From: Hydrogenophaga sp.
Lineage (GTDB): Bacteria > Pseudomonadota > Gammaproteobacteria > Burkholderiales > Burkholderiaceae_C
DNA: 64,000 nt
Direction of reading: 5' to 3'
NCBI GenBank assembly: GCA_011391495.1
Contig: JAABQK010000001.1
Location: 1-64,000 of the forward strand
Positions 6,092-32,170 of this stretch are shown here, one piece after another (positions within the stretch are counted from its first letter, which is position 1; each line of letters opens with the position of its first letter). The translations under genes and the position numbers were made by a program. Under the pieces are notes generated by a model. The model had not been told where the DNA came from, searched no databases, and saw only the letters and a list, made by a program, of their open reading frames with translations.

Positions 6092-9000
6092 TCAGATGGC
6101 TTCGTCGATCAACACGAGCACGTTCTGCCCGGCGCTCACCGAGCCACCCTGCACGCACATGAGGCTGTGCACGGTAGCGCTGGCGGGCGCGAGCAGGTTG
6201 AACTCCATCTTCATGGACTCGATCACCATCAGCACGTCGCCGGCCTGCACCTGCTGGCCCACGCTCACCGCCACTTTCCACACGTTGCCGGGCACGCTGG
6301 TCGCGATCAGGCGGCCGCCTTCGGGCAAGTCGATCTCGCTGTCCGGGCCGGCCGCTTCCACGTCGGCCTCGCTCGCCACCTCGGCCAGGCCGGCCGCGGC
6401 CCAGCGCTCGCGCTCGGCTTCGAACGACGCCTGCTGCGTGGCCTTGAAGGCGGCGATGCTGGCCGCGTTGTCGGCCAGGAAGCGGCGGTAGTCCTTCAGG
6501 CTGAAGCTGCCTTCCTCGGTGCGCAGCGGGTAGCCACCGTGCGGGAAGTCGGCGCGGATGCGCAGCAGCTCGTCCTGGCTCACCGGGTGGAAGCGGATCT
6601 GGTCGAAGAAGCGCAGCAGCCAGGGCTGTTCGAACACCGTGCCCGCTTCGCCGTGCCGCCAGCGGTTCCACATCTGCAGCGTGCGGCCCACGAACTGGTA
6701 GCCGCCCGGGCCTTCCATGCCGTAGACGCAGAGGTAGGCGCCGCCGATGCCCACTGCGTTCTCCGGCGTCCAGGTGCGCGCCGGGTTGTACTTGGTGGTC
6801 ACCAGGCGCTGGCGCGGGTCCAGGGGCGTGGCCACTGGCGCGCCCAGGTACACGTCGCCCAGGCCCAGCACCAGGTAGGGTGCCTCGAACACGATGCGGT
6901 ACACGTCCTCGATGCTGTCCAGCCCGTTGATGCGGCGGATGAACTCGATGTTGCTCGGGCACCAGGGCGCGTCGGGCCGCACCGACTGCATGTACTTCTC
7001 GATCGCGAGCTTCGTCTGCGGGTCGTCCCACGAGAGCGGCAGGTGCACGGTGCGGCTGGGCACCACCATATCGTCCACCGGCGGCAGCGCGGCCTCGGTG
7101 GCGATCAGCACCTTGAGCAGCGCGTCGCGGGAAATCAGCGCCGGGTCGAAGTGCACCTGCAGCGAACGGATGCCGGGCGTCATGTCGATGATGCCGGGCA
7201 ATTGGCCTTGCACCTGCAGGTCTTTCAGCGCCGTCATCAGCACGTGCACGCGCAGGCGCAGCTCGATGTCCAGCACCAGCGGGCCGAACTCCAGCAGCAC
7301 GTAGCGGTCGCCGGCCTGGCGCACCACCATGGCGGGCACGTCCTCGCGCGCCGGGTCTTCGTGAATCACCGGCGTGGTGTGGGCCAGCGCATCGTCGTGC
7401 GGTGCCGCGGGCAGCGCACCGGCCAGAGAACACAGCGCCGACTCGACCGCCGCTTCGCGCTCGCCCGCCTGCGCCAGCGACAGGCGGTGGAAGCGCACCG
7501 TGTCGCCGGGGCGCAGCTGGCCCAGCTTCCACAGCTCGGCGTTCACCACCACGGCCGGGCAGACGAAGCCGCCGAGGCTGGGGCCGTCGGGCCCGAGGAT
7601 CACCGGCATGTCGCCGGTGAAGTCGATCGCACCGATGGCGTAGGCGTTGTCGTGGATGTTCGACGGGTGCAGCCCGGCCTCGCCGCCGTCGGCGCGCGCC
7701 CAGCGCGGTTTGGGGCCGATCAGGCGAACGCCGGTGCGGCTGCTGTTGTGGTGCACCTTCCAGTCGGTGGCGAAGAAAGTGGCGATGTCGTCGGGCTGGA
7801 AGAAGTCGGGCGCGCCGTGCGGCCCATACAGCACGCCCACGTCCCAGTGGTGGCTGTAGGCAGGGATCAGTGCGGCGGGTGTCGCCGCGACCACCGGCGT
7901 GGCCGTGCCCGCCAGGTGCAGGGTGTCGCCGGCGCGCAGGTGCCGCCCCGCGTGGCCACCGAACTGGCCGAGGGTGAAGGTGCTGCGGCTGCCGAGGTAG
8001 GCCGGCACGTCCAGCCCACCCGCCACGGCCAGCGCCAGGCGCACCCCCGCTTCGGTGCGGCCCACCGCCAGCGTGCTGCCCGCGTTCACTTGCAGCGCCT
8101 GCCACATCGCCACCGGCTGGCCGTCCAGCGTGAGCTTCGCTGGCGCGCCGGTCACGGCCACCACCGCGGCGGTGTTGAAGCGCAGCGTGGGGCCGGCGAG
8201 CGTGATCTCCAGCGCCGCGGCGTCGGGCGCATTGCCCACCAGCTGGTTCGCCAGGCGGTGCGCGTAGGTGTCCATCGGGCCGCTGGGCGGCACGCCCACG
8301 TCCCAGTAGCCGGTGCGGCCCGGCCAGTCCTGCACGCTGGTCTGCACGCCGGGCTCCAGCACCTCGATTGTCGCGGGCCGGTAGTCGAAGCTGTTGAGGA
8401 AGCGCGTGACCTGCCGGCCCTCGCGGAACACCGCGCTGCGCACCACCTGGCGCAGGTAGCCCAGGTTGGTCTCGATGCCGGCCAGGCGCGTCGCGTCCAG
8501 TGCGGCTTCCATCTTGCCCAGCGCCTGCTCGCGCGTGTCGGCGGTGACGATCAGCTTGGCCAGCATCGGGTCGTACCAGGCGGGCACCTCGGTGCCGCGC
8601 TCGACCCAGCCGTCCACCCGTGAGTCCGCCGGGAACACCACCTCGGTGAGCAGACCCGCGCAGGGCTGGAAGTTTTTCGCCGGGTCTTCGGCGTACAGCC
8701 GCACCTGGATGGACGCACCGCGCAGCACCGGCTGCAGCGTGGCCAGCGGTGGCAGATCACCCGCAGCGAGCTGCAGCATCCAGGCCACCAGGTCCACGCC
8801 GCTCACCTGTTCGGTCACGCCGTGCTCCACCTGCAGGCGCGTGTTCACCTCCAGGAAGTAGAAGGCACCGGTGGCCGCGTCGTAGACGAATTCCACCGTG
8901 CCGGCCGAGCGGTAGTCCACCGCCTGCGCCAGCCGCACGGCGGTGGCGTGCAGCTCGTGGCGCTGTGCGTCGCTCAGGCCCGGCGCCGGGGTTTCCTCGA

Positions 9001-9712
9001 TCACCTTCTGGTTGCGCCGCTGCACCGAGCAGTCGCGCTCGCCGAGCGCGATCACGCCGCCCGCGCCGTCGCCGAACACCTGCACCTCGATGTGGCGCGC
9101 CTGCTCCACGTACTTCTCCAGGAACAGGCCGGCGTCCTTGAAGTTGGCCTGCGCCATGCGGCCCACGCTGTCAAACGCATCGGCGAGTTCGGCCGCATTC
9201 CACACCAGCCGCATGCCGATGCCGCCGCCGCCCGCCGTGCTCTTGAGCATCACCGGGAAGCCGATACGCTGTGCCTCGGTCTGTGCCTGCGCCAGATCGC
9301 CCAGCAGGCCCGATCCCGGGAGCAGCGGCACGCCGCGCGCCTGCGCCAGATCACGCGCCGTGTGCTTCAGGCCAAAGGCGCGCATCTGCGCTGGCGTGGG
9401 GCCGATGAACGCGATGCCCGCGGCCTCGCAGGCTTCGGCGAAGCCGGGGTTTTCGGAGAGGAAACCGTAGCCGGGGTGGATGGCCTGCGCGCCGCAGTCC
9501 TGGGCGATCTGCAGGATGCGGTCGGCGCGCAGGTAGCTCTCGGCCGCAGGTGCCGGGCCGAGCAGATACGCCTCGTCGGCTTCGCGCACATGGCGCGCCT
9601 GCGCGTCGGCTTCGGAATACACGGCCACGCTCTGCACGCCCAGCTTCTTGAGCGTGCGGATGATGCGGCAGGCGATGGCGCCGCGGTTGGCAATCAGGAC
9701 CTTGCTGAACAT
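6092..9712 (-). CDS. Biotin-dependent guanidine carboxylase (annotated as urea carboxylase)
   Basis: A 1206-residue biotin enzyme that carboxylates guanidine or urea using ATP and bicarbonate. Domains in order: biotin carboxylase with ATP grasp (about 1-450), KipI/KipA-like carboxyltransferase region (about 470-1060) and a C-terminal biotinyl domain with ESMKMEF, biotin on Lys1168. I take the ATG at 9712, preceded by GGAGAC, because [11 protein letters not shown] is the canonical start; an upstream ATG at 9781 adds 23 unrelated residues. Family members next to DUF1989 pairs and behind guanidine-I riboswitches prefer guanidine (Schneider et al., 2020, from memory). Asp697 in AIDFTGD lies where I recall urea carboxylases having Asn. 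The product would be carboxyguanidine. Confidence 0.92.
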
Positions 9713-9791
9713 GGAGTCTCCGGTGCAGGCCGTCCTGCGAGTGGGCTGGAAGCTGCGGGTCGTCCCGCAGCAGCGGTTCACACAAGATCGG

Positions 9792-10478
9792 TCAGGCCGG
9801 GTTCCAGACGATGAGCTGGATGGGCGTCGGGTTGTAGGCGTTGCAGGGGTTGTTGAGCTGCGGGCAGTTGCTGATCAGCACCCACACGTCCATCTCGGCG
9901 CGCATCTCCACGTACTTGCCGGGGCCGGACACGCCGTCGTCGAACTTCAGGTCGCCGCCTTCGGTGACCGGCACGTTCATGAAGAAGTTGATGTTGGGCA
10001 CCAGGTCGCGCTTGCCCAGGCCCACGTCGGCGTGCTGCAGCGCGATCAGGTAGTTGTCGCGGCAGCTGTGCATGTACTTCTTCTGCAGCGCGTAGCGCAC
10101 CGTGTTGCTCTCTGCCGCGCAGGCGCCGCCCAGCGTGTCGTGGCGGCCGCAGGTGTCGGCCACGATGGTCAGCATGGGCCGGCCGTCGTTGCTGCGGATC
10201 ACCGAGCCCGTGGTGAGGTAGATGCCGCCCTGGCGTTGCATGGTGTCGGTGGCGCTGTAGTGCTCGGCAGGATCGTGGCGGTTGTAGAAAATCACGTCGG
10301 CGGCCTGGTTGCCTTCCAGGTCCACGATGCGCAGGGTCTGGCCGCGCTTCACCTCGAACAGGATGGGCTCGCCCGCGGGGTGGCGCTGGTTGAGCACGGC
10401 ATTCGCCGGGTCGAGCGCGCTTTCCTGGATGCGGATGTCGGTGGCGGTGTGCGGGGTGTCGGAGGTGATGGTGTTCAT
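9792..10478 (-). CDS. Urea-amidolyase-associated protein 2 (DUF1989), carboxyguanidine deiminase subunit
   Basis: A 228-residue DUF1989 protein. Such UAAP1/UAAP2 pairs were shown in other bacteria to form carboxyguanidine deiminase, which turns carboxyguanidine into allophanate plus ammonia. Visible family features are the [12 protein letters not shown] stretch, the CRDNYLIAL and [15 protein letters not shown] motifs and Cys residues in [15 protein letters not shown]. The ATG at 10478 has AAGGAGAC directly upstream; the frame stays open far upstream only as a shadow of the neighbouring gene. It lies between UAAP1 (14 bases) and the carboxylase (79 bases). The role is inferred from family and context. 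Confidence 0.88.
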
Positions 10479-10492
10479 GGCGGTCTCCTTGT

Positions 10493-11338
10493 TCACAGGT
10501 ACAGGACATCCGTGTTGTGCAGGGCGCGCGCGTTCTCCGGCCGGAAGGCGCGGCAGACATCGTTGGCCGGTGCGGCGCCGCAGCGCCAGGCCAGCATGCC
10601 CACCTTCTTCGGCGCATACACCGGCGCCGGGTCCAGCGCGTGCGGTGCGCTGGAGACGGCGAGGATCACGTCCATGTCGAAGCGCAGCTCCACGAAGTCG
10701 CCCGCCTTCGCGTGGTTGGCGGCAAAGCCGAAGCGCCCCTGCGCATCCACGCTCACCTTGCTGAACAGGTTCACCGGCGCAATCAGGTCGCGCTTGCCCA
10801 GGCCGTACTTGCCGATCTCGATCAGCAGGCCGTCCTTGCCGGATCGGTACATGGCGTTGCGGGCCTGCTCGTAGCGCTGCTCGCGGTATTGCTGGGCCAT
10901 GAGCTCGTTGTCGAGCAGGGCGCCCAGCGGGTCGTGCCAGCCCAGGCTGTCGGCGGTGAAGCTGGCCATGCTGCGGCCCATGTCGCTCATGAGCACATGG
11001 CCCCTGGTGTAGTGCGCGGTGTGCTGCGCCTTCAGGCTGTCGGGCATGTTGTAGCGCTCCAGCTTTTCCTGCGCGCTGTAGAGCACCAGGCTCAGGTTGG
11101 CGCTGGCGTCGAGCGCGACGAAGCGGATGGCGCTGCCGCGCGGCATGCGCCAGCTCCAGTGGCTGCCGCCGGGAAGCACCTCGCTCCACATCGCCCGCGC
11201 GGTGTCCACGCCGTCCAGCGAGGCTGCGGGGAAGCGTTGCCAGAAGGCGGGGGCATCCACCGGGCTTGCCTGCGGCGGGTTGGGCGGTGTCACCGTCAGG
11301 GGGTCGATCAGGGGGTCTGAAACAGGGTGGCTGTGCAT
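10493..11338 (-). CDS. Urea-amidolyase-associated protein 1 (DUF1989), carboxyguanidine deiminase subunit
   Basis: A 281-residue DUF1989 paralogue of the next gene; both share the [19 protein letters not shown] block and a C-terminal half with the same layout. It has an N-terminal extension of about 40 residues rich in Pro and Thr. With UAAP2 it probably forms the deiminase acting on carboxyguanidine. It follows the ABC ATPase by 18 bases in the riboswitch-led operon. The function comes from work on homologous pairs, not from active-site residues that I could verify here. Confidence 0.88.
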
Positions 11339-11356: not shown

Positions 11357-12223
11357 TCAGACGGTCTCGGCCGTGGCGCCCGACAGGCGCTGCAGCTGCT
11401 CCAGGTCGGTCTTCATGCCGGACGTCTCGCGGATGCGGTCCAGGATGTCGCGCTTGAGGCGCACGAACTCGGGCGCGTGCTTCAGGTCCTGCGTGCGCTG
11501 GTCGCCGAAGGGCACCTCGTAGATGGTGTCGATGCGGCCCGGGCGTGGCGACATCAGCACCACGCGCTGGCCCAGGTAGAGCGCCTCTTCCACGTCGTGC
11601 GTGACGAAGACGATGGTGGCCTTCTCCAGCCGGTGCACATACCGGATCAGGTCGTGCATCACCTCGCGCGTCTGCGCGTCGAGCGCGCCGAAGGGCTCGT
11701 CCATCAGCACGATGTCGGGCCGGCCCATCAGGGCGCGGGCAATGGCCACGCGCTGCTGCATGCCGCCCGAGAGCTGGTTGGGCCAGGCGCCGGCCACGTT
11801 CTGCAGGCCCATCAGGCGCAGCAGCGCGTCGGCCCGGCCCGAGGCGGCCTCCACGTCGCCCGAGGTGCGGTCCTGCGTGTGCGCGGCGAGCTGGCGGCAG
11901 AACCTGATGTTTTCCAGCACCGACATCCAGGGGTAGAGGCTGTAGTGCTGGAACACCATCGCGCGGTCGATGCCCGGGCCGTTCACGGTGCGGCCGTCCA
12001 CCAGCAGCTCGCCGGCGGTCTGCACCTCCAGCCCGCCGATGGTGCGCAGCAGGGTGCTCTTGCCGCAGCCCGAGGCGCCCACGAAGGTGACGAACTCGTT
12101 GGCGGCGATGTCCAGGTCGATGTGCTCCAGCGCGTTGATGGTGGCACCGTCAAAGCGCTTGTACAGGCCGCGCACGGCGATCTTGGGCAGGGTGCCCGCG
12201 GGGGAATGGATGGTGGTGCTCAT
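11357..12223 (-). CDS. ABC transporter ATP-binding protein, nitrate/taurine type (probable guanidine import)
   Basis: A 288-residue cytoplasmic ATPase of the SsuB/TauB/NrtD group. Walker [10 protein letters not shown] is at about 49-57, the signature is LSGGMQQR, Walker B with D-loop is [12 protein letters not shown], and the switch His is in [11 protein letters not shown]. It starts 3 bases after the permease stop. In guanidine-I riboswitch regulons this transporter class is linked to guanidine uptake. This operon has no substrate-binding protein; the likely partner starts at 31964 behind the second riboswitch. Confidence 0.93.
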
Positions 12224-12226
12224 GGC

Positions 12227-13087
12227 TCAGCCCTTCAGATACAGCCAGGGGAAGGCGCGGCGGTGCGCCCAGCGGAACAGCTGGTCCGTCACCAGCCCGA
12301 TGAGACCAATGACGATGATGCCGGCGAAGATGGTGTCGGTCTGCAGGAAGCGCTGCGCGCGCAGGATGGCGTAGCCCAGGCCCGAGTTGGCGGCCACCAG
12401 CTCGGCCACCACCAGGTAGGTCCAGGCCCAGCCCATGGTGATGCGCATCGTGTCCAGCAGGGCCGGCTTGGCGCTGGGGAAGATCACCTTCTCGATCAGC
12501 TCGCTGCGGTTCGCGCCCATGGTCTGCGCCGCTTCCACCTGCGCGGCGGGCACGCGGCGCACGTCTTCGGCCACCATCAGCACCATCTGGAAGAAGGTGC
12601 CGATGAAGATGATGGCGATCTTCGAACTCTCGTCGATGCCCACCCACAGCATCACCAGCGGAATGAAGGCCACCGCCGGCATGTAGCGGATGAAGTCGGT
12701 CAGCGGCTCCAGCAGCGCCTGCACCGCCCGGTACGACCCGATCAGCAGGCCCAGTGGCAGCGCGATCACGGCCGAGAGCAGAAAGCCCGCTACCACCCGG
12801 TAGATGCTGATGCCCATGTCTTCCATCAACCCGGTTTCCATGGCCCAGGTCCAGGTCTTGTTCAGCACCTGCAGCGGCGCGGGCAGGAAGGTCGGGTCCA
12901 TGCCGCCCCAGGCCGCCAGCATGGCCCACAGCAGCAGCGGCGTGACCAGGCCGGTGAGCGCCAGCACCCAGTAGCTGCGGCGCGAAATGGGTGCACGCAC
13001 CGTCCACAGGCTAGAGCGCCGCTGCGGCTTCGGCGGCGGGCCGGCGGGCTGGATCGCCTGGACGGCGGGGGAAAGGGGCTGGGTCAT
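12227..13087 (-). CDS. ABC transporter permease, nitrate/taurine type (probable guanidine import)
   Basis: A 286-residue inner-membrane permease of the BPD_transp_1 family. About six hydrophobic segments follow a polar, Pro/Arg-rich N-terminus of about 35 residues, and the EAA-type loop that meets the ATPase is visible (EAAQTMGANRSELIEKVIFPSAKP). It is the first gene of the operon. The start has AGGAG 6 bases upstream and lies 54 bases after the conserved 3' edge of the guanidine aptamer. Import of guanidine is inferred from riboswitch and neighbours. Confidence 0.92.
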   Translation of the reverse strand: MTQPLSPAVQAIQPAGPPPKPQRRSSLWTVRAPISRRSYWVLALTGLVTPLLLWAMLAAWGGMDPTFLPAPLQVLNKTWTWAMETGLMEDMGISIYRVVAGFLLSAVIALPLGLLIGSYRAVQALLEPLTDFIRYMPAVAFIPLVMLWVGIDESSKIAIIFIGTFFQMVLMVAEDVRRVPAAQVEAAQTMGANRSELIEKVIFPSAKPALLDTMRITMGWAWTYLVVAELVAANSGLGYAILRAQRFLQTDTIFAGIIVIGLIGLVTDQLFRWAHRRAFPWLYLKG

Positions 13088-13106: not shown

Positions 13107-13148
13107 CGAAAAGCGGAGAGGCTCGTGCGGTGGCACGCGAGCGTCTCC
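13107..13148 (-). terminator. Intrinsic terminator that overlaps the riboswitch (expression platform)
   Basis: On the minus strand GGAGACGCTCG (13148-13138) can pair with CGAGCCTCTCC (13125-13115), 10 of 11 positions matching. The stem is followed by GCTTTTCG. The left arm overlaps the GGGAGA that ends the conserved guanidine aptamer, so the two structures exclude each other. This is the expected layout of an ON switch: bound guanidine holds the aptamer and transcription reads into the permease gene. Pairing was done by eye. Confidence 0.7.
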
Positions 13149-13246
13149 CGGGCTTTTGTCCCTCCGTGGAGCCACGCGATGGTGGCCGACTGCTCTCGGA
13201 CCAGACGGCTCAGACGGTGTGACGGTCTGGGCCCGGAACCCTAGCG
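13141..13246 (-). ncRNA. Guanidine-I (ykkC) riboswitch aptamer, copy 1
   Basis: The minus strand carries all three conserved blocks of the guanidine-I class in order: CTAGGGTTCCGG at the 5' end, CTGGTCCGAGAG in the middle and GGAGGGACAAAAGCCCGGG near the 3' end. It sits in the leader of the ABC/DUF1989/carboxylase/allophanate hydrolase operon, which is a known target set of this riboswitch. It senses guanidine and normally turns expression on. Confidence 0.95.
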
Positions 13247-13299
13247 GTCTTCAAGGCAAGCGGCGTGCGCTGGCACGGCGCCTCTCTGTCTCAGGGAGT

Positions 13300-17510: not shown

Positions 17511-17641
17511 TGTGTGCTCCACATGCGTTTGGCGGGCCGGAATTGACCCGCTGCATGCATCTTGGTGACGCGCCGTTCCTCAAGTGTTCCTGGCTGCCCA
17601 GGCACTTGCGGGTGCCAAGCAACTGCCTCAGACTGGCCGAC

Positions 17642-23973: not shown

Positions 23974-24732
23974 TCAGTCGGCCCACTCCAGCGCCAGCCA
24001 CTCCCCCGCGAGGTGAGCGCCAGCCACCTGCACCCGGCTGCCGTCCAGGCGCTGCAGCTGGCAGGGCAGAGCCTGCCCCTCCCTGGCGGGCAGGGTGGAA
24101 CGCTCCACGGTCCACAGGCCCTGGTCCAGCAGGCCGAAGCTGATCTCGAAGTCGAGCAGGGCCGCGGCATCGGCCGGATGGCGCTGCACCAGGTCGGCCA
24201 GTGTCTCGTCCGGCGCCAGGTCAGACGGCCAGGCCGCGGTGCGCGGGCGCAGGTGCATGAGGTACTGACCCGCCAGCAGCAGGCGCTCGGCCGTGGGCTG
24301 GCAGTGTGCATCGACGCGCGCGAGCGCTATGCGCCGGCCGAGCGAGGCGGGCAGGCGTTCCCACACTTCCAGGTACTGGCCGTGGATGCCGGTCTCGATG
24401 ACGCGCTCGCTGGTTTCGAACACCATGTGGCCGGCGTCGGGGGTGCTGCGCGGGGGCTGGAAGTCGATGCGGCGTTGCCAGGTGCAGACCTCGGGCTGGT
24501 CGGGGTCGGGCCGGGTGATGGTGGTGACGCCGCCAAAGCCCTGCTGCAGCGCCAGGCCTTCGGGCGTGTGGCGGTCGGCGCCGGGCGGCACGCGCAGGTC
24601 GCCGTGCCAGCGGCCGGTCTGCAGCCAGCGCACCCAGGTGCGGGTGTCGCGGCCTTCGGGCGTTTCCAGCAGGGTGCGCGCCCACACGCCCTGGTAGCGG
24701 CCTGAAACCGTTTCGATCGGTGGCGGGCTCAT
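23974..24732 (-). CDS. Conserved protein of unknown function, last gene of guanidine locus 2
   Basis: A 252-residue soluble protein that I cannot assign. It has no signal peptide or membrane segment. The sequence is rich in Trp and beta-type alternation (GRYQGVWARTLLETP, TWVRWLQTGRWHGDLRVP, FGGVTTI, CTWQRRIDFQPP), which suggests a beta-barrel or lipocalin-like fold. It starts 61 bases after the metallo-beta-lactamase and runs in the same direction, so it is probably part of the riboswitch-led cluster. A binding or isomerase role is possible but not shown. Confidence 0.65.
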   Translation of the reverse strand: MSPPPIETVSGRYQGVWARTLLETPEGRDTRTWVRWLQTGRWHGDLRVPPGADRHTPEGLALQQGFGGVTTITRPDPDQPEVCTWQRRIDFQPPRSTPDAGHMVFETSERVIETGIHGQYLEVWERLPASLGRRIALARVDAHCQPTAERLLLAGQYLMHLRPRTAAWPSDLAPDETLADLVQRHPADAAALLDFEISFGLLDQGLWTVERSTLPAREGQALPCQLQRLDGSRVQVAGAHLAGEWLALEWAD

Positions 24733-24793
24733 CGGAGTACCTTGCCCTGCGGGCTGCGGCGCGAGCTGGCTTGGGAGCGGACCGGCGCTGCGC

Positions 24794-25600
24794 TCATGCG
24801 ATGGCCTGCGGAAAAGCGGGCAGGCGGCGGTAGAAGGCCATGTCGTGGTTGGGCCAGAGCTGTGCCCCGGTTTCCCGGGCCAGGCGTTTCAGCTTGCGGA
24901 TGCTGTCAATGGCGAGCTGTTCCTGGTCCTGCCAGAGGCCGCCGGGCGCCACCTCGTCGTCGATGTTCTCCTGCAGGTCGGCCGCGTCGCCGGCCAGCAG
25001 CACGGGCGGCCCCTTGGGCAGTTCGATCAGCATGGACATGTGGCCCGCGGTGTGGCCGGGCGTGGCCACGGCCGTCACGCCGGGCAGCACGCTGTATTCG
25101 CCGCGCCGCAGGCGGAACTGCAGCGGCGCGCCGGCGTCGTCGGTCAGGTCGTCGGGGAACACGGCGCCGTCCTGTCCGCTGGAGGCGGCGTCCCACTCGT
25201 CCTGCTGTACATGGATTTCGGCGCCGCAGCCACAGCGGCGCAGCTCTTTCAGGCCGCCCGCGTGGTCGAAGTGCAGGTGGCCGATGAAGATGAGGTCCAC
25301 GTCGGCCGGGGTGAGGCCCAGGCGCGCCAGGTGGTGGGGAATGCGCTGCTCCTCGCGCATGTCGGGCGCGCCCATGGCGAAGCTGGCAGGGTCGTAGTGG
25401 CGCGCGCGCAGGGCCGGGTCGCTGATCTTGCGGTGGTCGCAGCCCACGTCGTACAGGATGCGGCCCTGCTTCGTTTCAACGAGGTAGGCCAGGATGGGCG
25501 CTTCGATGATCTCGCCCTGCCCACGCCGGTAGGTGGAGATGCTCTTGTCGTAGCGGTGGGTGGCGGTGAGCAGCGGCCAGAGGCGGGTGGCTTGGGTCAT
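24794..25600 (-). CDS. Metallo-beta-lactamase fold hydrolase, lactonase type (AttM/AiiB-like)
   Basis: A 268-residue zinc hydrolase of the N-acyl homoserine lactonase family. The metal motif HLHFDH is complete, with further ligands in PGHTAGH, LAGDAAD and the C-terminal WPNHD. There is no signal peptide, so it is cytosolic. It lies 15 bases downstream of the cysteine hydrolase, in a cluster of amide and ring hydrolases. Hydrolysis of a lactone or cyclic intermediate of the catabolic route fits better than quorum quenching, but this is inference. Confidence 0.85.
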   Translation of the reverse strand: MTQATRLWPLLTATHRYDKSISTYRRGQGEIIEAPILAYLVETKQGRILYDVGCDHRKISDPALRARHYDPASFAMGAPDMREEQRIPHHLARLGLTPADVDLIFIGHLHFDHAGGLKELRRCGCGAEIHVQQDEWDAASSGQDGAVFPDDLTDDAGAPLQFRLRRGEYSVLPGVTAVATPGHTAGHMSMLIELPKGPPVLLAGDAADLQENIDDEVAPGGLWQDQEQLAIDSIRKLKRLARETGAQLWPNHDMAFYRRLPAFPQAIA

Positions 25601-25615
25601 GGGTCGGGTTCGGGT

Positions 25616-26296
25616 TCAGGTTCCGGTGGATGCCGGTGCGCGGGCCAGCAGGGCCAGGTCTTCCACGCATTCGGCGGTGCTGCACACGCGGCCGAAGAGG
25701 CCGCCTTCCACGCCGATCATGGCCAGTGCCGGGGCCTGCAGTTCGGGCTGGCTGGCGGCGGTGGCGTCGCCCACGGTGGTGCAGGCGTAGCCGCGGTCCA
25801 CCGCCTCGCGCAGGGTGGAGTGCACGCAGACCTCGGTGGTGACGCCGCAGAGGATGAGCCGCTGCACGCCGTGGCGCGCGAGCACGCTGCCCAGGCGCGT
25901 GAGGTGGAAGGCGCCGTAGCCGGGCTTGTCGATCACCTCTTCGCACAGCAGGGGGCGCAGCGCAGGCACGAAATCGTGACCCTGTTCGCCGCGCACCAGC
26001 AGCCGCCCGAGCGGGCCGTGGCTGCCGATGGGTGCACCGGCTGCCACGCTGCGCGCCAGCTTGGCGGGCGGGCAGTCGGACAGGTCGGGCAGGTGCCCTT
26101 CGCGGGTGTGCACCACCAGCAGGCCGGCGTTGCGCGCAGCCTGCAGCAACCGCTGCACCTGGCCCACCACCGCCTGCATGCGGCTGATGTCGATGCCGGC
26201 CTGGTGCGCGTAGCCGCCGGGGCTGCAGAAGTCGCGCTGCATGTCGATGACGAGCAGCGCGGTAGCCGCAGGGGACAAGGCGGTGTCGGCGGGCAT
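25616..26296 (-). CDS. Isochorismatase-like cysteine hydrolase, biuret/guanylurea hydrolase type
   Basis: A 226-residue amidohydrolase. The Asp-Lys-Cys triad is Asp19 (LLVIDMQRDF), Lys124 (VIDKPGYGAF) and Cys157 (GVTTEVCVHSTLREA). The spacing of 105 and 33 residues nearly equals that of biuret hydrolase (106 and 33, from memory). The loop HTREGHLPDLSDCPPAKL is also typical of the biuret/guanylurea hydrolase branch and not of isochorismatases. Such enzymes cleave biuret to allophanate or guanylurea to guanidine; either product would enter the first operon. The start is 5 bases after the creatininase stop. The exact substrate is open. Confidence 0.85.
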   Translation of the reverse strand: MPADTALSPAATALLVIDMQRDFCSPGGYAHQAGIDISRMQAVVGQVQRLLQAARNAGLLVVHTREGHLPDLSDCPPAKLARSVAAGAPIGSHGPLGRLLVRGEQGHDFVPALRPLLCEEVIDKPGYGAFHLTRLGSVLARHGVQRLILCGVTTEVCVHSTLREAVDRGYACTTVGDATAASQPELQAPALAMIGVEGGLFGRVCSTAECVEDLALLARAPASTGT

Positions 26297-26301
26297 GCTG
26301 C

Positions 26302-27099
26302 TCAGGGGCGCGTGAAGCCCGTCTGGATCGCCTCGGCCATGCGGCGTGCCACCTCGTCTGCCAGCAGGCGGCCCTTGGTGGCATCCGATCCCCTGGCCGA
26401 CGAGAGCACGCCCGAGGCGGGCACCCAGTCGGTGCGCGGCGGGTACATGTCGTAGGGCGGAAAGTCGGCCGGGCCGTCGTCGGGCAGCAGGTCCATGCGC
26501 ACCAGGCCGGGGTGGTGGTGCAGCATCATGGACGTTTCCAGCACGGCGGCGTGTTCCAGTGCGAAGCCGGGGAAGCCCTCGGGGAACACGTCGCCCAGGG
26601 TCTCGGGCGTCATGAAGTCCCAGTACTCCAGCCGCATCACCTGCAGTGCACACGCGGGGTCGGCGGCCCTGGCGTCGCGCAGGCCGAGGTCGATGCCTTC
26701 GATCAGGAACCACTGGTTTTCATAGTGACCGTTGACGATGACGAGCTTCGTCAGGCCGTGGCGTGCGAACTCGCGCACCGCGTCGCGCACCTGGCCGATG
26801 AGCGTGGCGGCGTCCACGCTGGTGGTGCCGCAGAAGTGTTGTCCGCCGCCGCACTTGGGCTGCGACTTGTAGCCGTAGCTCAGCGTGGGCGCCACCAGCC
26901 CGCCCACGCGTGCGGCGGTGTCGGCCGCGACGGCGCTGGCGAGCAGGCCGTCGGTGCCCAGCGGCAGGTGCGGGCCGTGCTGCTCCAGCGCGCCCACCGG
27001 CAGCAGCACCGGCGGCTGGTCGCGCTGGATGCGCTGCTGGTAGTCAACCCAGGAGAGCTGGTTCATCCAGACGGTGGGGATGTCGGTGCGGGTAGTCAT
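26302..27099 (-). CDS. Creatininase (creatinine amidohydrolase) homologue
   Basis: A 265-residue enzyme very like Pseudomonas creatininase, which opens the creatinine ring to creatine. All metal ligands align: Glu39 and His41 (GALEQHGPH), Asp50, His125 and Glu127 (NGHYEN). Trp160 (EYWDF) and His183 (LEHAA) also align with catalytic-site residues, but the ring-stacking Trp174 of the Pseudomonas enzyme is Phe179 here (my alignment, numbering from memory). The substrate may thus be a different cyclic or linear guanidino amide. The ATG at 27099 has AAGGAG upstream; the same 13-base leader GAACAAGGAGACC-like block precedes the DUF1989 gene at 10478. Confidence 0.88.
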   Translation of the reverse strand: MTTRTDIPTVWMNQLSWVDYQQRIQRDQPPVLLPVGALEQHGPHLPLGTDGLLASAVAADTAARVGGLVAPTLSYGYKSQPKCGGGQHFCGTTSVDAATLIGQVRDAVREFARHGLTKLVIVNGHYENQWFLIEGIDLGLRDARAADPACALQVMRLEYWDFMTPETLGDVFPEGFPGFALEHAAVLETSMMLHHHPGLVRMDLLPDDGPADFPPYDMYPPRTDWVPASGVLSSARGSDATKGRLLADEVARRMAEAIQTGFTRP

Positions 27100-27113
27100 G
27101 GTGGTCTCCTTGT

Positions 27114-28037
27114 TCATGCGCCGGGGTGGGCCGCGCTGGCGGCGGGGGTCGGCCTTGCATCGGGTGCACTGCCCAGGGCTTCCACCAGGGCGGCCGTCGC
27201 AATCAGCGCGCCACCGGCCCAGCCCATGGGGGTGAGGCTTTCGCCGCCGAACCACAGGGCGGTGAGCACGGCCACCACCAGCTCGGCCAGCAGAATCACG
27301 CCGGCGCGGCTGCTTTCGAGGTGCGTCACGCCGAACTGCCAGGTGGCGGTGGCCAGCAGCAGCCAGCCGAAGCCATAGGCCAGGATGCCGAACCACACGA
27401 GCGCACCCATGGCCGGCACGCTGTGGCCCAGTGCGCTGGTGGCAGCGAGCGAAATCAGGCCGCAGCCGGCGAATACGGCCAGCGTCTTGGTGCGCATGGG
27501 CACGGCTTGCGCGGCGCGCGCGAGGATGTTGTTGGCCGCAAAAGCGAAGCCGGCCGAGAGGGCGAGGAAGTCCACGAAGCTGAGCGAGAGGCTCGCGGCG
27601 CCCGGCCCGCCCAGCACCATCCACAGGCCCACGATGGCGGCCACCACGGCGGCCCAGCGCGTGGGCGGAATGCGCTCCTTCAGGAACAGCCTGCCACCGA
27701 GCACCGACCACACGGGCGAGAGGTAGAACAGGAACATCACCCGCACCACGTCGCCCATCATCAGGGCGTTGACAAAGGAGGTGTTGGCCCAGCCGCCCAC
27801 CAGCGCCAGCGCGAGCACAAAGCCCCACTGCGCTCGCCAGGCCGCGCGGTCGCGCCAGATGAAGGGCAGCGCACACAGGCCCACCAGGCCATAGGACAGC
27901 AGCGACACCACCGGCCCGCTCAGGCCCTGCGCGATGAACCACTTGAGCGGTATCCACGACAGGCCCCACAGCGAGGCGGAGAACAGCAGCACGCCGGTGG
28001 CGACGCGGTCGGAGGGGTGAACGGGCAGGCGTGTCAT
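27114..28037 (-). CDS. EamA (DMT superfamily) transporter
   Basis: A 307-residue inner-membrane protein with about ten hydrophobic helices arranged as two EamA repeats (about 15-145 and 160-285), as in drug/metabolite transporters such as RhaT and YdcZ relatives. Its stop lies 14 bases before the creatininase start. A role in export of a product, such as methylamine-like or toxic guanidino compounds, or import of the substrate, is inferred from the cluster only. Confidence 0.85.
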   Translation of the reverse strand: MTRLPVHPSDRVATGVLLFSASLWGLSWIPLKWFIAQGLSGPVVSLLSYGLVGLCALPFIWRDRAAWRAQWGFVLALALVGGWANTSFVNALMMGDVVRVMFLFYLSPVWSVLGGRLFLKERIPPTRWAAVVAAIVGLWMVLGGPGAASLSLSFVDFLALSAGFAFAANNILARAAQAVPMRTKTLAVFAGCGLISLAATSALGHSVPAMGALVWFGILAYGFGWLLLATATWQFGVTHLESSRAGVILLAELVVAVLTALWFGGESLTPMGWAGGALIATAALVEALGSAPDARPTPAASAAHPGA

Positions 28038-28081
28038 CGGTTATCCATGGCACCGGAGCACTGACACCCAGGGGCACCGAG

Positions 28082-28150
28082 GAACCGGCTTCGCCGGGCC
28101 TCTGGTGCCGCCCCCCTTGAGGGGGGTGACGCGAAGCGGCGCAGGGGGTG
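28082..28150. repeat. Intergenic palindromic repeat, copy A
   Basis: A GC-rich element with the hairpins CCGGCTTCGCCGG and CCCCCCTTGAGGGGGG followed by GCGAAGCGGCGC. It matches over about 65 bases the element at 29750-29820, in the same orientation. Both lie in gaps of the minus-strand cluster. Such elements are common between genes of Comamonadaceae and may stabilise or end transcripts. Confidence 0.7.
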
Positions 28151-28158
28151 TTTCATCC

Positions 28159-28920
28159 TCATGGCATCACCGAGCCGCCGTTGGGGCCGAGCACCTGGCC
28201 GCAGTAAAAGCGCGACAGGTCGGACGCGAGGAACAGCACGCTGGCCGCGATCTCCGCCGGATCGGCCAGCCGGTGCTGCGGGATGGCGAGCTCTTTTTCC
28301 ACCCACTCGGGGCTCATGTGTTCGAGCGACACCATGGCGGTGGCCACCGGCCCGGGCGCGATGGCGTTGATGCGAATCTGCTGCGGCGCGAACTCGCGCG
28401 CCAGCGAGCGGGTGAGCCCGATCACGCCGGCCTTGGCGGCGCAGTAGGGCGCGTAGCGCTCGCGCCCGAGGATGCCCAGATCGGACGCGATGTTGACGAC
28501 GACGCCGCTGCCCCGTGCCACCATGCCGGGCAGCACCGCGCGGCACACCAGGAAGACCGACTTGAGGTCGGTGCCGAGCATGCGGTCCCAGTCCTCTTCG
28601 CTGGTGTCGAGGAAGGGCTTTTCCTGCAGGATGCCGGCGTTGTTGACCAGGATGTGGATGGGGCCTGCCGCTTCGTTGGCTTCGCGGACCAGACGTTCCA
28701 CGTCCACGGCCCGGCTCACGTCGGCGCTGAGGGCCAGCGCCTGGCCACCCGCGGTGGTGATCTCGTCCACCAGCGCCTGCGCGGCCTGTGACTGGTGCAG
28801 GTGGTTCACCACCACGCGCGCGCCGGCCTGTGCGAGCAGCAGCGCGGTGGCGCGGCCGATGCCGGTGGCCGCGCCGGTGACCAGCGCGGTCTGGCCCTGC
28901 AGTGAAATGGGGACGTTCAT
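28159..28920 (-). CDS. Short-chain dehydrogenase/reductase (FabG-like)
   Basis: A 253-residue SDR. The cofactor motif is TGAATGIG, the structural motif LVNNAGI, and the catalytic Tyr and Lys lie in YAPYCAAKAG with the Ser in VVVNIASD. His/Asn at the end of the second strand (VVNHLHQSQ) suggests NADP(H), though not firmly. The start ATG at 28920 overlaps the stop of the preceding SDR (ATGA), so the two are translationally coupled. It should oxidise an alcohol or reduce a ketone of the pathway. Confidence 0.87.
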   Translation of the reverse strand: MNVPISLQGQTALVTGAATGIGRATALLLAQAGARVVVNHLHQSQAAQALVDEITTAGGQALALSADVSRAVDVERLVREANEAAGPIHILVNNAGILQEKPFLDTSEEDWDRMLGTDLKSVFLVCRAVLPGMVARGSGVVVNIASDLGILGRERYAPYCAAKAGVIGLTRSLAREFAPQQIRINAIAPGPVATAMVSLEHMSPEWVEKELAIPQHRLADPAEIAASVLFLASDLSRFYCGQVLGPNGGSVMP

Positions 28921-29705
28921 GCCATCACCTCGCCGTGGCTGGCCACCAGGCACTGGCCGGTGAGCGGGGCGGCGCCTTCGCTGGCGAGAAAGAGAAAGAC
29001 GCCGCCGAGTTCGTCGGGTGTGAGCATCTGCGGCACGGCCTGGCGTGCCAGGAGGTCCCGCTCGACCTCGGCCTCGGTTGTTCCTTGCTCCTGCGCCATG
29101 GCGCTGAGCGACCGAAGGGCCGCCTCGGTGCGTACCCAGCCGGGGCAGACCGCGTTGACGCGGATGCCCCGCGGGCCGAGCTCCAGCGCGAGCGAGCGCG
29201 TGAGGCCCACCACCGCGTGTTTGCTCGCGCTGTAGGCCGAGAAACCGGCCACGCCGATGCGGCCCCAGATGGAGCTCTGGTTGATGATGCTCGCGCCGCG
29301 TGGCAAGAGTGGCAGCAGCGCCTGCGTGAGCCGGACCATGCTGCTCACGTTGTTGTCGAGCAGGCCAGCCCAGCGCGCCATGGCGTCGGGCGCGGTGCTG
29401 TCCATGGGCGTCGGGTATTCGGCGCCGGCGTTGTTCACCAGCACATCAAGCTGCCCGAAGCGTTCTTTCACGCGGGCCGCTACGGCCGCCACCTCGGCGT
29501 CGCTGCCGAGGTCGCACACGGCGCTGTGCACCAGGCTGCTGTGCAGCGACTCCACCAGTGCGTCGAGCGGCGCGGCGGCGCGGTCCAGCAGCATGAGCTG
29601 CGCACCCTGCGCGAGGAAGGCCCGCGCCAGCGCGCTGCCAATGCCGCCGGCCGCACCGGTGATCAGCACCGTTTTGCCCTGCAGGCCATAGCTGGGTAGA
29701 GACAT
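28917..29705 (-). CDS. Short-chain dehydrogenase/reductase
   Basis: A 262-residue SDR with TGAAGGIG, LVNNAGA and a catalytic YSASKHA. The end of the second strand carries Asp (LMLLDRAAA), which usually means NAD(H). The ATG at 29705 has AAGGTG upstream; an ATG at 29723 is possible. It follows the di-iron hydroxylase across a 117-base gap that holds repeat copy B, and overlaps the second SDR. Together the two could convert a hydroxylated intermediate to a carbonyl or acid. Confidence 0.86.
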   Translation of the reverse strand: MSLPSYGLQGKTVLITGAAGGIGSALARAFLAQGAQLMLLDRAAAPLDALVESLHSSLVHSAVCDLGSDAEVAAVAARVKERFGQLDVLVNNAGAEYPTPMDSTAPDAMARWAGLLDNNVSSMVRLTQALLPLLPRGASIINQSSIWGRIGVAGFSAYSASKHAVVGLTRSLALELGPRGIRVNAVCPGWVRTEAALRSLSAMAQEQGTTEAEVERDLLARQAVPQMLTPDELGGVFLFLASEGAAPLTGQCLVASHGEVMA

Positions 29706-29749
29706 GTCAGGCACCTTGCGCACGAGGGGTGGCCCACCGGGAACACCGC

Positions 29750-29820
29750 CGGGCCGGCTTTGCCGGACGGCTGGTGTTGCCCCCTGGGGGGTAGCGCCGA
29801 AGGCGCTGCGGGGGGAGCGT
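29750..29820. repeat. Intergenic palindromic repeat, copy B
   Basis: Contains CCGGCTTTGCCGG, CCCCCTGGGGGG and GCGCCGAAGGCGC. It is the same element and orientation as at 28082-28150. It lies between the hydroxylase and the first SDR and could split the cluster into differently expressed parts. Confidence 0.7.
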
Positions 29821-29822
29821 CA

Positions 29823-30833
29823 TCACACCGCTGTCAGGAATGAAACACCCACGGCACCGACGAACCCGTCGGCTCGGTGGGCTGCGCCGGGTGGCAGCAC
29901 CGCGCCGTAGTCGCTGGCGAGCACGCGGGTCACGCGGTGGCGGTGGTAGGCACACAGCAGCTCGCCCACCGTGACCACCTGGGCGTTGCCCTCGGGGTAC
30001 AGCTCGCGGTGCAGCTGCGGCAGCTGGTACCAGGGCGCGACAGGCCTCTCGTGGTGCGCGTTGTGGAAGCCGAAGTTGAGCCAGACCAGGTTGAGCCACG
30101 TCGCGTCGACGCTGACCACATCGCTGTAGGTGTTGGCCTGCTCGTAGGCACGGTCGCGCACCTTGTCTTGCGGGATCGGCTTGTCGTCCAGGATAGGGTA
30201 GGCGTCGTAGGTGTGCTGGAAGCAGTCGGCAAAACGCAGCAGGTGCACGAACAGCAGGTAGGCCAGCGCGTAAAGGGCCAGGGCCTTGAGCGACCACCAG
30301 GCCAGCAGCGCCCAGGCCGCTAGCCGGACGGCGGCGACACCGATCACACGGCCGCGCGCCTCCTTCTTGCGCTCGCCCATGAAGGGCAGCGCAATCACGA
30401 AGCCGCGCATGACGAACTCCACCGCGGGGATGTAGGCCCATTCGAGTGCCAGCACCACCCGGCGCACCAGCGGGTGGGCGCGCAGGAAGCCCTGCAGGTC
30501 GAAGGTGATGACGTCGGCGCGTTCGACGTGGTGGCGCATGTGCTTGCGGCGCAGGTCGGCGAAGCTGGCATAGCAGCTGCCGTTGAGCCAGCTCATGAAC
30601 TTGCCCCATCGCTCGTTCGCCTGCGGTGTCCTGAAGATGGCTTGGTGCGCGAACTCGTGGATGAAGTAGGCCGACCAGGTGAGCGTGAGCGCCACCAGCA
30701 GCACGCCCAGCGCGTTGATCGCCCAGTACGCCTGACCGAGCAGGGCGATGCCCAGTGGCCAGCCGAGCACGGTGAAGGCCAGGGCGAGGGTGTTGGGCAA
30801 CACGCCGTCGGCGTGTCGGAAAACCGGTTTCAT
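29823..30833 (-). CDS. Membrane di-iron fatty-acid-desaturase-like hydroxylase
   Basis: A 336-residue integral membrane protein of the fatty acid desaturase/alkane hydroxylase superfamily. The three histidine boxes are complete: His59 and His63 (HEFAHQ), His98, His101 and His102 (HMRHH), His257, His260 and His261 (HNAHHE). Hydrophobic segments flank them. Such enzymes hydroxylate or desaturate using O2 and outside electrons. It is the first gene after the binding protein behind the second guanidine riboswitch. A lipid desaturase would be odd there, so an oxygenase acting on an N-alkyl or substituted guanidine is a better guess. No dedicated reductase is in the cluster. Confidence 0.85.
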   Translation of the reverse strand: MKPVFRHADGVLPNTLALAFTVLGWPLGIALLGQAYWAINALGVLLVALTLTWSAYFIHEFAHQAIFRTPQANERWGKFMSWLNGSCYASFADLRRKHMRHHVERADVITFDLQGFLRAHPLVRRVVLALEWAYIPAVEFVMRGFVIALPFMGERKKEARGRVIGVAAVRLAAWALLAWWSLKALALYALAYLLFVHLLRFADCFQHTYDAYPILDDKPIPQDKVRDRAYEQANTYSDVVSVDATWLNLVWLNFGFHNAHHERPVAPWYQLPQLHRELYPEGNAQVVTVGELLCAYHRHRVTRVLASDYGAVLPPGAAHRADGFVGAVGVSFLTAV

Positions 30834-30885
30834 GGGAGGTCTCTCACAGCGGTTGCACAGGGGATGCGGGAGGCCGCGGCGCAGC

Positions 30886-30916
30886 GCGCCAGCACCCTGT
30901 TGACGGGCGCTGGCGC
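30886..30916 (-). promoter_or_regulatory. Strong hairpin between binding protein and hydroxylase genes
   Basis: GCGCCAGC at 30886-30893 pairs perfectly with GCTGGCGC at 30909-30916, extended by CCC/GGG after one mismatch, around a 7-base loop. No T run follows. Hairpins at this place often protect the binding-protein part of an ABC operon mRNA and lower downstream expression. Confidence 0.5.
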
Positions 30917-30929
30917 AGCGGCGGAGGGC

Positions 30930-31964
30930 TTACTTCGCCAGGGCCTTGACCAGGCTGGCGTCGAACGTGGCCTCGGTGGCCGGGATCGTGGTGATCTGGC
31001 CCTTGGCCTTGAGCAGCTCGGCAATGATCTCGCCGCTGGCGTAGTACGAGGTGGTTTCCTTGGCCTTGGTGAAGGCCTTGGGCATCTCGGCCAGCGGGAT
31101 GTTGTAGACACCGCTGAGCTGTTCCTTCACTTCCGATGCGGACACGCCCATGAACTTGCCGATGATCTTGGCGGCGTCGTCGGGCTTGGCCTTCATGTAG
31201 GCCAGGCCGTCGAGGTAGGCCTTCATGATGCCGGTGATCTCGGCCGGCTTGGCCTTGATGACCTTGTCGTCGAACACCAGCACGTCGGCGATCAGGCCGG
31301 GCGCGTTCTTCGACGAGAACACCACCTTGAACTTCTTGCCGCCGCCCTGGCCGAGGATCTGCGACAGGCTGGGCTCGTAGGTCACGCCTATCGGCAGCGC
31401 ACCGGAGGCCATGGCCGCGGGCACGGCTTCGGGCGTCATGCTCACCGGGCTGATGTCCTTCTCGCCCAGGCCGTTGATCTTGAGCGCATAGGACAGCAGG
31501 AAGTCGCTGGGAGACAGCGGGTTGTAGCCAATCTTCTTGCCCTTGAAATCGGTGACCTTAGTGACCGAGCTGTCGGCCACGATGGCGTCGCCACCGTTGG
31601 AGTAGTCGATGGGCATGACCACCTTCATGGCGCGGCCGGCGGCCACCTGGCCGACCACCTGGTCGTAGGTCAGCATGCCGCCGTCCACCGCACCCGAGGC
31701 AATGGCGGAGGGGATGAGCGCCGGGTCGTTGAAGACCTGCAGCGAAACCTTGAGCTTGTACTTCTTGTAGAGGTCGAGCGCGTCGGCCACGTAGAAGGGT
31801 CCGTAGCCGATCCACACCACGGTGGCCAGTTTCATGGGCGCTGGCGCCTGCGCGAATGCGCCGGCGGTGGCCAGCGACAGCGCCAGGCCCAGGGCCGGCT
31901 TGAGGAAATGGTGGCGCCGCGAGGAAGAAAGCAGGCTGCTGGCGGTGGGGGCGGTGTTTTTCAT
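30930..31964 (-). CDS. ABC transporter periplasmic substrate-binding protein, nitrate/taurine type
   Basis: A 344-residue SsuA/TauA/NrtA-like (NMT1) binding protein. The N-terminus has a signal peptide ending near GAFAQAPAP; the mature protein shows VWIGYGPFYVADAL and SGAVDGGMLTYDQVV, typical of the fold. The ATG at 31964 is chosen because the open frame further upstream lies in the riboswitch. It is led by the second guanidine-I riboswitch and has no permease or ATPase beside it. The permease/ATPase pair at 11357-13087 has no binding protein, so these three are probably one guanidine (or guanidino-compound) importer. Confidence 0.9.
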   Translation of the reverse strand: MKNTAPTASSLLSSSRRHHFLKPALGLALSLATAGAFAQAPAPMKLATVVWIGYGPFYVADALDLYKKYKLKVSLQVFNDPALIPSAIASGAVDGGMLTYDQVVGQVAAGRAMKVVMPIDYSNGGDAIVADSSVTKVTDFKGKKIGYNPLSPSDFLLSYALKINGLGEKDISPVSMTPEAVPAAMASGALPIGVTYEPSLSQILGQGGGKKFKVVFSSKNAPGLIADVLVFDDKVIKAKPAEITGIMKAYLDGLAYMKAKPDDAAKIIGKFMGVSASEVKEQLSGVYNIPLAEMPKAFTKAKETTSYYASGEIIAELLKAKGQITTIPATEATFDASLVKALAK

Positions 31965-31995: not shown

Positions 31996-32021
31996 GAAGA
32001 AGCGATCGGTGATCGTTCTCC
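31996..32021 (-). promoter_or_regulatory. Candidate expression-platform hairpin of riboswitch copy 2
   Basis: On the minus strand GGAGAACGATC (32021-32011) can pair with GATCG(C)TTCTTC (32007-31996), one bulged C and one G-U pair, loop ACC. As in copy 1, the left arm uses the GGGAGA end of the aptamer, so the two folds compete. No strong T run follows. The weak site makes this less certain than in copy 1. Confidence 0.45.
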
Positions 32022-32107
32022 CGGGCTTTTGTCCCTCCGTGGAGCCTGCGATGAGGCCGGCACACTCTCGGACCAGACATCACGCCTGCGTGACCGGAAC
32101 CCTAGTG
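32015..32107 (-). ncRNA. Guanidine-I (ykkC) riboswitch aptamer, copy 2
   Basis: The minus strand has the conserved blocks CTAGGGTTCCGG, CTGGTCCGAGAG and GGAGGGACAAAAGCCCGGG in the right order, identical to copy 1 in these blocks, while the variable stems differ. It leads the binding-protein gene by 50 bases. This places the locus-2 genes in the guanidine regulon. Confidence 0.95.
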
Positions 32108-32170
32108 CACCTGTGCGGCTGAGGAATTGTGGCTGCGCTCACAAATCGCTCTTCTTGCGGTGTGAGGGTG

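Follow-up and report, generated by a model that had tools for sequence, protein, structure and literature searches.

Organization of the nine-gene operon

This study concerns a nine-gene operon of Hydrogenophaga sp., located on the minus strand of a 64,000-nucleotide stretch of DNA (GenBank assembly GCA_011391495.1, contig JAABQK010000001.1, positions 1 to 64,000) which was analysed at its full length and is referred to as the window. Rfam identifies three guanidine riboswitches in the window, two of the Guanidine-I and one of the Guanidine-II class, all on the minus strand. No further Guanidine-I riboswitch was found in the source genome (86% complete). The second Guanidine-I riboswitch (riboswitch 2) heads the operon, which reads in the direction of transcription:

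32016..32116, minus strand: Guanidine-I riboswitch aptamer (Rfam RF00442, 81.5 bits, gathering score 63)
30930..31964, minus strand: substrate-binding protein of an ATP-binding cassette (ABC) importer, NMT1/SsuA-like (Pfam/NCBIfam)
29823..30833, minus strand: membrane di-iron hydroxylase-type protein (PF00487, FA_desaturase, 122.7 bits)
28917..29723, minus strand: short-chain dehydrogenase SDR1 (Pfam; present in 43 of 57 related loci)
28159..28953, minus strand: short-chain dehydrogenase SDR2, which pairs with the creatininase-family gene (Pfam)
27114..28037, minus strand: EamA-family transporter (PF00892)
26302..27099 (alternative start 27117), minus strand: creatininase-family amidohydrolase CrnA (TIGR04448, 352.5 bits)
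25616..26296, minus strand: isochorismatase-like/biuret-hydrolase-like hydrolase (57% identity to the pMET-2 cysteine hydrolase)
24794..25600, minus strand: lactonase-type hydrolase of the metallo-beta-lactamase fold, MBL (PF00753)
23974..24732, minus strand: MgdL-family protein, putative N-(hydroxyalkyl)guanidine lyase (hhalign 99.9% with its counterpart of locus L119)

The riboswitch score and the Pfam/NCBIfam gene identities bear out the first-pass annotation, which had placed nine same-strand genes behind a riboswitch at this position. The start codon of the binding-protein gene lies about 50 bp downstream of the aptamer, and the spacing between the nine genes ranges from overlap to about 120 bp. 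Gene prediction puts the first gene downstream of the MgdL-type gene on the opposite strand, so the operon probably ends there. A terminator scan gave three consensus matches against 2.8 expected, on the operon strand one just behind and one upstream of the aptamer, on the other strand one inside the EamA gene; being close to chance, these matches allow no firm statement.

The last gene encodes an MgdL-type protein

The product of the last gene, which has only a sub-threshold match in Pfam, had been entered as an unknown protein. This label gives way to an MgdL-type identity. Over the length of the protein hhalign pairs it with the homologue encoded at locus L119 (probability 99.9, E 6.5e-35); the comparator was this homologue and not the Vreelandella boliviensis sequence, and its own assignment as MgdL-type rests on its operon and on the aspartate and arginine at its positions 49 and 51. 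Each of the 62 operon rows has the corresponding D-x-R residues, D45 and R47, and likewise W36, W85, E113, E122 and W124. By sequence, the last-gene protein is thus an MgdL-type homologue and a proposed lyase. Its AlphaFold2 model is mainly or entirely beta (predicted local distance difference test score 96.1). The top matches of a fold search in the PDB are lipocalin-like, yet weak, with none at E <= 0.001, and the best 120 of 1107 protein matches to the MgdL-type alignment are mostly unnamed near relatives.

The report on V. boliviensis (PMC12508155) describes two enzymes encoded between gca and atzF. MgdH forms N-(hydroxymethyl)guanidine; cleavage of this product falls to MgdL, a beta-barrel in its model, with D49 and R51 as catalytic residues. 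Locus L119 resembles this mgdH-mgdL operon in gene order: a Guanidine-II riboswitch is followed by a carboxylase gene, a 2-oxoglutarate (2OG)-Fe(II) dioxygenase and then the MgdL homologue, and an allophanate hydrolase, with further genes interspersed. With an MgdL-type protein as its last gene product, the operon of the window probably has hydroxylation followed by hemiaminal cleavage as its central chemistry.

The profile of the MgdL-type protein detects homologues in 7 of 369 genomes of the class and, within the order to which genome G612 belongs, in 8 out of 244 (G000, G114 and G612 among these). A cluster elsewhere (L116, 9349-18893), lacking a guanidine riboswitch at the gathering score, holds an MgdL-type gene together with an EamA transporter, binding protein, permease, ATPase, a distant creatininase-family protein, a glutamine synthetase-like protein, a NikR-type regulator and both UAAP genes; it is possibly another guanidine gene set.

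Conservation of the operon in relatives

A pattern scan of a genome collection of 84,980 species with the hydroxylase alignment yielded 153 relatives, of which the best 80 loci were kept. The scan detects genomes that match two short peptide patterns, and distant loci are missing from the 80. Counts of gene presence are based on those 57 of the 80 loci whose sequence continues for 700 bp or more beyond the last gene of the operon. Presence was scored by tblastn and then by profiles, by which one EamA gene was gained and all other calls stayed unchanged. Loci L016-L024 partly duplicate genomes of L028-L107 and were not added to those counts.

A riboswitch core match was found by pattern search upstream of the binding-protein gene in 74 of the 80 loci, and an Rfam re-scan of seven of the 80 agreed. 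The search for the same gene set near Guanidine-I riboswitches in other genomes, as proposed in the first-pass annotation, therefore finds the linkage kept. Of the six misses, three start inside the operon at contig ends (L033, L045, L089), two sit behind an allophanate hydrolase gene (L051, L099) and one behind a riboswitch-permease-ATPase arrangement (L075). The records kept include Hydrogenophaga, Polaromonas, Rhodoferax, Aquabacterium, Tepidimonas, Rhizobacter, Rubrivivax, Ramlibacter, Noviherbaspirillum, Herminiimonas, Thiomonas and others, with the hydroxylases closest on the tree (up to 92% identity) in Hydrogenophaga and similar records. The gene set thus recurs across many genera of Burkholderiales and in one further family (f161), in which loci L129, L130 and L146 carry the operon behind a Guanidine-I riboswitch, L129 and L130 without MBL and L130 also without SDR1.

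Of the 57 loci, 55 hold the MgdL-type gene; MBL is absent at the locus in 18, 13 of them Hydrogenophaga, and SDR1 in 14. Among 250 genomes of the same family, 13 hold a CrnA homologue at E <= 1e-20. All ten CrnA orthologues with at least 69% identity lie inside this operon; the remaining three homologues (48, 48 and 32% identity) occur without the operon and without a guanidine riboswitch.

The membrane di-iron protein and the first reaction

The di-iron protein is the sole oxygenase-type gene product among the nine. Its histidines 59, 63, 98, 101, 102, 207, 257, 260 and 261 are invariant in 82 of 82 rows, and a search by sequence profile gave no PDB match up to E 0.1. No 2OG-Fe(II) oxygenase was found among the nine genes with Pfam, nor at E <= 1e-15 in genome G000 (86% complete). 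The C-terminal tail of the hydroxylase, GAVGVSFLTAV, is identical in 10 of 10 rows of alignment A1, and all 80 rows that extend this far keep S-F-L.

At 13 loci (12 genomes) outside the order of the window, a dioxygenase stands directly upstream of the MgdL-type gene in eight, the di-iron protein is part of the cluster in three, neither is found in two and both in none. Three of the eight dioxygenases are confirmed by Pfam; the other five share 53-59% identity with that of L119. All seven genomes of the dioxygenase type tested for it are without the di-iron protein, and within genus g460 one species (G803) has the dioxygenase pair and another (G1191) the di-iron operon. In genome G461 a relative of the di-iron protein lies on a different contig from the MgdL-type gene. 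Most likely, the di-iron protein does the same kind of job as the dioxygenase, namely hydroxylation next to nitrogen, possibly on a different substrate. Strict mutual exclusion of the di-iron protein and MgdH was considered and dropped, as genomes G202 and G706 hold a dioxygenase in addition to the di-iron operon.

At L147 (8497-13210) and L148 (6295-11057), distant relatives of the hydroxylase (43-45%) have a xylose-isomerase-like TIM-barrel gene as well as an ABC importer as neighbours, and no guanidine riboswitch; perhaps these relatives act on a different substrate. An NCBIfam scan of the TIM-barrel neighbour was uninformative.

SDR2, CrnA and the guanylurea-hydrolase-like enzyme

SDR2 and CrnA occur together in 48 of the 57 loci and are both missing in nine; no locus has one without the other (tblastn; profiles agree). 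On a tree of 64 hydroxylases, in which gene presence in L120, L129, L130, L146, L147 and L148 was entered from a separate locus mapping, each changes state seven times in an identical pattern. Genome G151 (100% complete) has the hydroxylase, SDR2 and CrnA and lacks an MgdL homologue at E <= 0.001 genome-wide, which suggests SDR2 and CrnA as another outlet for a hemiaminal.

CrnA scores 352.5 bits with the TIGR04448 equivalog model (cut-off 235) and matches a PDB creatininase at E 5.5e-75. Like the creatininase of Pseudomonas putida (PDB 1J2T), it belongs to the creatininase family. Residues E39, H41, D50, H125 and E127, kept in 61 of 61 rows, align with the creatininase metal site, and the positions of Tyr121 and Trp154 are kept as well. 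In contrast, the position of Trp174, a residue of the active-site loop, is Phe in 59 and Tyr in two of 61 operon CrnAs and never Trp; the pairing with a dehydrogenase and the lack of a detectable creatinase-family protein are further differences. In one relative (G244) the creatininase gene is apparently split, with its front in the operon (L024, 9205-9840) and its end, together with the MBL and MgdL-type genes, about 38 kb off (L136, 7261-8863). In another (G229; L022, 9411-10187) an in-frame stop lies within the matched creatininase stretch.

The isochorismatase-like protein shares 57% identity over 203 residues with a cysteine hydrolase of Pseudomonas mendocina MET plasmid pMET-2. Among the relatives compared, the guanylurea hydrolase is the closest; with the biuret amidohydrolase equivalog NF050097 the protein reaches 248.9, below the cut-off of 370. 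By plasmid and neighbouring deaminase gene, the pMET-2 match fits the guanylurea hydrolase characterised in PMC9800807. The motif residues D17 and C156 are kept in 59 of 59 rows and K123 in 58, with one gap. The homologue studied here resembles that enzyme in sequence and catalytic motif and differs from it in standing in a putative alkylguanidine operon. Creatinine is a cyclic N-acylguanidine, and guanylurea is also an N-acylguanidine. CrnA and the guanylurea-type gene occur together in 42 of the 57 loci, and the idea that they are alternatives was set aside for this reason. The guanylurea-hydrolase-like protein has a further relative, of 64% identity, on a Nitrosospira plasmid (L137, 7900-8592).

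Locus 1 and the importer

Downstream of the operon, the same strand of the window carries a second guanidine locus (locus 1):

13143..13255, minus strand: Guanidine-I riboswitch (RF00442, 82.3 bits)
12227..13087, minus strand: ABC permease (PF00528)
11357..12223, minus strand: ABC ATPase (PF00005)
10493..11338, minus strand: UAAP1 (DUF1989), carboxyguanidine deaminase-type subunit (TIGR03425, 316.9 bits)
9778..10617, minus strand: open frame where the second UAAP subunit is expected (position; tblastn matches beside UAAP1 in relatives)
9725..9771, minus strand: Guanidine-II riboswitch, before the carboxylase (RF01068, 42.6 bits)
6092..9712, minus strand: urea/guanidine carboxylase, start codon inferred (TIGR02712, 1894.7 bits)
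4237..6060, minus strand: allophanate hydrolase (TIGR02713, 776.8 bits)

Locus 1 resembles the guanidine carboxylase regulon outlined in PMC12186494 in having the riboswitches, parts of the importer, the deaminase-type subunit, the carboxylase and the allophanate hydrolase. It differs in that no binding-protein gene lies within locus 1; here this gene is displaced into the second operon. Since permease and ATPase genes close the nine-gene-type operon in the three f161 loci, the binding protein of the operon is probably the missing subunit of the locus 1 importer.

Proposed pathway

Gene content, riboswitch match, conserved linkage, MgdL homology and the pairing of SDR2 with CrnA in this sample are observed; from them we infer that the substrate is an N-alkylguanidine, that the di-iron protein hydroxylates it and that an exit leads through an acylguanidine. 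On balance we favour, with some reserve, the view that the operon frees guanidine from an N-alkylguanidine by hydroxylation and lyase action; methylguanidine is the most likely substrate. The binding protein and the locus 1 permease and ATPase would import the cation. The membrane di-iron protein would introduce a hydroxyl group at the carbon adjacent to nitrogen; from the resulting stable hemiaminal, for example N-(hydroxymethyl)guanidine, the MgdL-type protein would release guanidine together with an aldehyde. SDR2 may open a second exit by oxidising the hemiaminal to an N-acylguanidine (e.g. N-formylguanidine), from which the creatininase-type enzyme would release guanidine along with an acid. 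Acylguanidines may also be cleaved by the guanylurea-hydrolase-like enzyme. The enzymes of locus 1, first the carboxylase, then the deaminase and the allophanate hydrolase, would act on the guanidine in turn. The Guanidine-I riboswitch at the head of the operon would place it under control of the product, which fits the finding, given in PMC12508155, that the Guanidine-I riboswitch of V. boliviensis binds guanidine and not methylguanidine.

We put forward the second exit itself, a formaldehyde-free route by SDR2 and a creatininase recruited from creatinine metabolism and started by a membrane di-iron oxygenase instead of a 2OG dioxygenase, only tentatively, as a possibility that falls somewhat short of being probable.

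Several observations weigh against the proposed pathway. The PF00487 hydroxylases known so far mostly act on lipophilic substrates. Of the 14 genomes examined that carry the di-iron operon, two (G202 and G706) hold a dioxygenase as well (53 and 58% identity) and three (G121, G244 and G1191) hold relatives of 39-40%; in G202 the dioxygenase has a weak MgdL homologue of its own (E 2.1e-8). At L116 and L117 neither oxygenase accompanies the MgdL-type gene. No guanidine riboswitch reaches the gathering score at four of the dioxygenase-linked loci (L121, L131, L133, L134), and the MgdL match is weak at L131-L135 (E 2.3e-17 to 1.1e-6). As to the second exit, a sign test for SDR2 and CrnA on supported branches has only four independent pairs (p 0.125), both proposed exits are kept in 47 of the 57 loci, and at L099 both are missing. 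Finally, according to PMC12508155, MgdH and MgdL suffice for methylguanidine demethylation in V. boliviensis; as two enzymes are enough there, the extra enzymes here suggest another or a wider substrate.

Alternative substrates and explanations

In the strongest alternative, the natural substrate is some other N-alkylguanidine, of larger size or with a branched chain, or else acyl- and alkylguanidines in mixture; the same chemistry would then yield a non-C1 aldehyde or acid to be processed by SDR1 and the lactonase-type protein. Genome G202, in which the dioxygenase-lyase pair and this operon coexist, indicates that the substrates of the two may differ. Moreover, the eight dioxygenase loci are without mapped relatives of SDR2, CrnA, the guanylurea-type enzyme and MBL, with a single SDR1 match of 32% (L134), and MBL has a lactonase-type fold, its best NCBIfam model being the AiiA lactonase (143.9 bits, under the cut-off of 375). 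However, MBL is missing in 18 of the 57 loci, 13 of them Hydrogenophaga, and SDR1 in 14, and none of the nine genes has a Pfam or NCBIfam match to families typical of fatty- or amino-acid breakdown. We regard this alternative as rather unlikely.

Still less likely is an oxidative creatinine route, in which the hydroxylase would form 5-hydroxycreatinine (creatol), an SDR the 5-oxo compound, CrnA would open the ring, the guanylurea-type enzyme would cleave oxalyl-guanidine, and the resulting methylguanidine would go through hydroxylase and lyase to guanidine. CrnA does keep the residues aligned with the creatininase metal site and with Trp154, and two hydrolases of the operon have characterised relatives that cleave acylguanidines. 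The abiotic conversion of creatinine to creatol and methylguanidine is described in PMC3775425. Yet the hydroxylase would need two actions, nine of the 57 loci have neither CrnA nor SDR2, and in G151, which has SDR2 and CrnA without the lyase or the guanylurea-type gene, methylguanidine would be stranded.

Classical creatinine hydrolysis, by creatininase to creatine and by creatinase to sarcosine and urea, appears very improbable in spite of the TIGR04448 score above cut-off, and was rejected. A creatinase partner is lacking among the nine genes, and no PF01321 protein was found in the source genome (86% complete), while the control search was positive in 13 of 14 genomes. The Trp174 position of the operon CrnAs also speaks against it. 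By comparison, the gene for a 48% identical CrnA relative (L026) has a creatinase-family gene two places away on the same strand, and no riboswitch. The N-alkylguanidines, one of the substrate candidates of the first-pass annotation, are retained.

That unrelated genes are merely parked behind a transporter riboswitch, with the binding protein alone serving guanidine metabolism, is barely credible: three loci (L051, L075, L099) do have upstream sequence and no riboswitch immediately before the binding-protein gene, but set and order are kept across many genera and another family, all ten close CrnA orthologues among the 250 family genomes lie in this operon, and chance clustering was rejected on this conservation.

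Relation to published systems and implications

The genes had been proposed to form an undescribed catabolic set that oxidises and hydrolyses a guanidino compound and passes guanidine to locus 1. A conserved, riboswitch-linked set with this function remains plausible, but it is not wholly undescribed: riboswitch-controlled release of guanidine from an alkylguanidine by a hydroxylase and a lyase has been in print since 2025, as PMC12508155 documents. The operon shares with the MgdH/MgdL system a lyase family with catalytic D-x-R and the links to a guanidine riboswitch and a guanidine carboxylase gene. It differs in its oxygenase class, a membrane di-iron protein of the PF00487 type here and a 2OG dioxygenase there, and in the added dehydrogenases and creatininase-type, guanylurea-hydrolase-like and lactonase-type enzymes. 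Literature joining guanidine, riboswitch and creatininase was not found in a search of a limited set of journals, so a mention elsewhere is possible, and a keyword search on N-demethylation by a bacterial methylguanidine hydroxylase returned no match.

According to PMC12186494, the question of where guanidine originates in nature is unsettled in riboswitch biology, and few routes of its release are known. The operon is a named and testable candidate for such a source in culturable genera such as Hydrogenophaga, possibly with a new enzyme class for the first pathway step. If true, the proposed pathway would explain why guanidine regulons contain a membrane hydroxylase and a creatininase, and the labels "creatininase" and "fatty acid desaturase" that automatic annotation gives to these genes would have to be read with caution.

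Between the two guanidine loci, the window carries on the opposite strand (17426-20833) a regulator-like frame of 1135 residues with BTAD, AAA and TPR-type domains.

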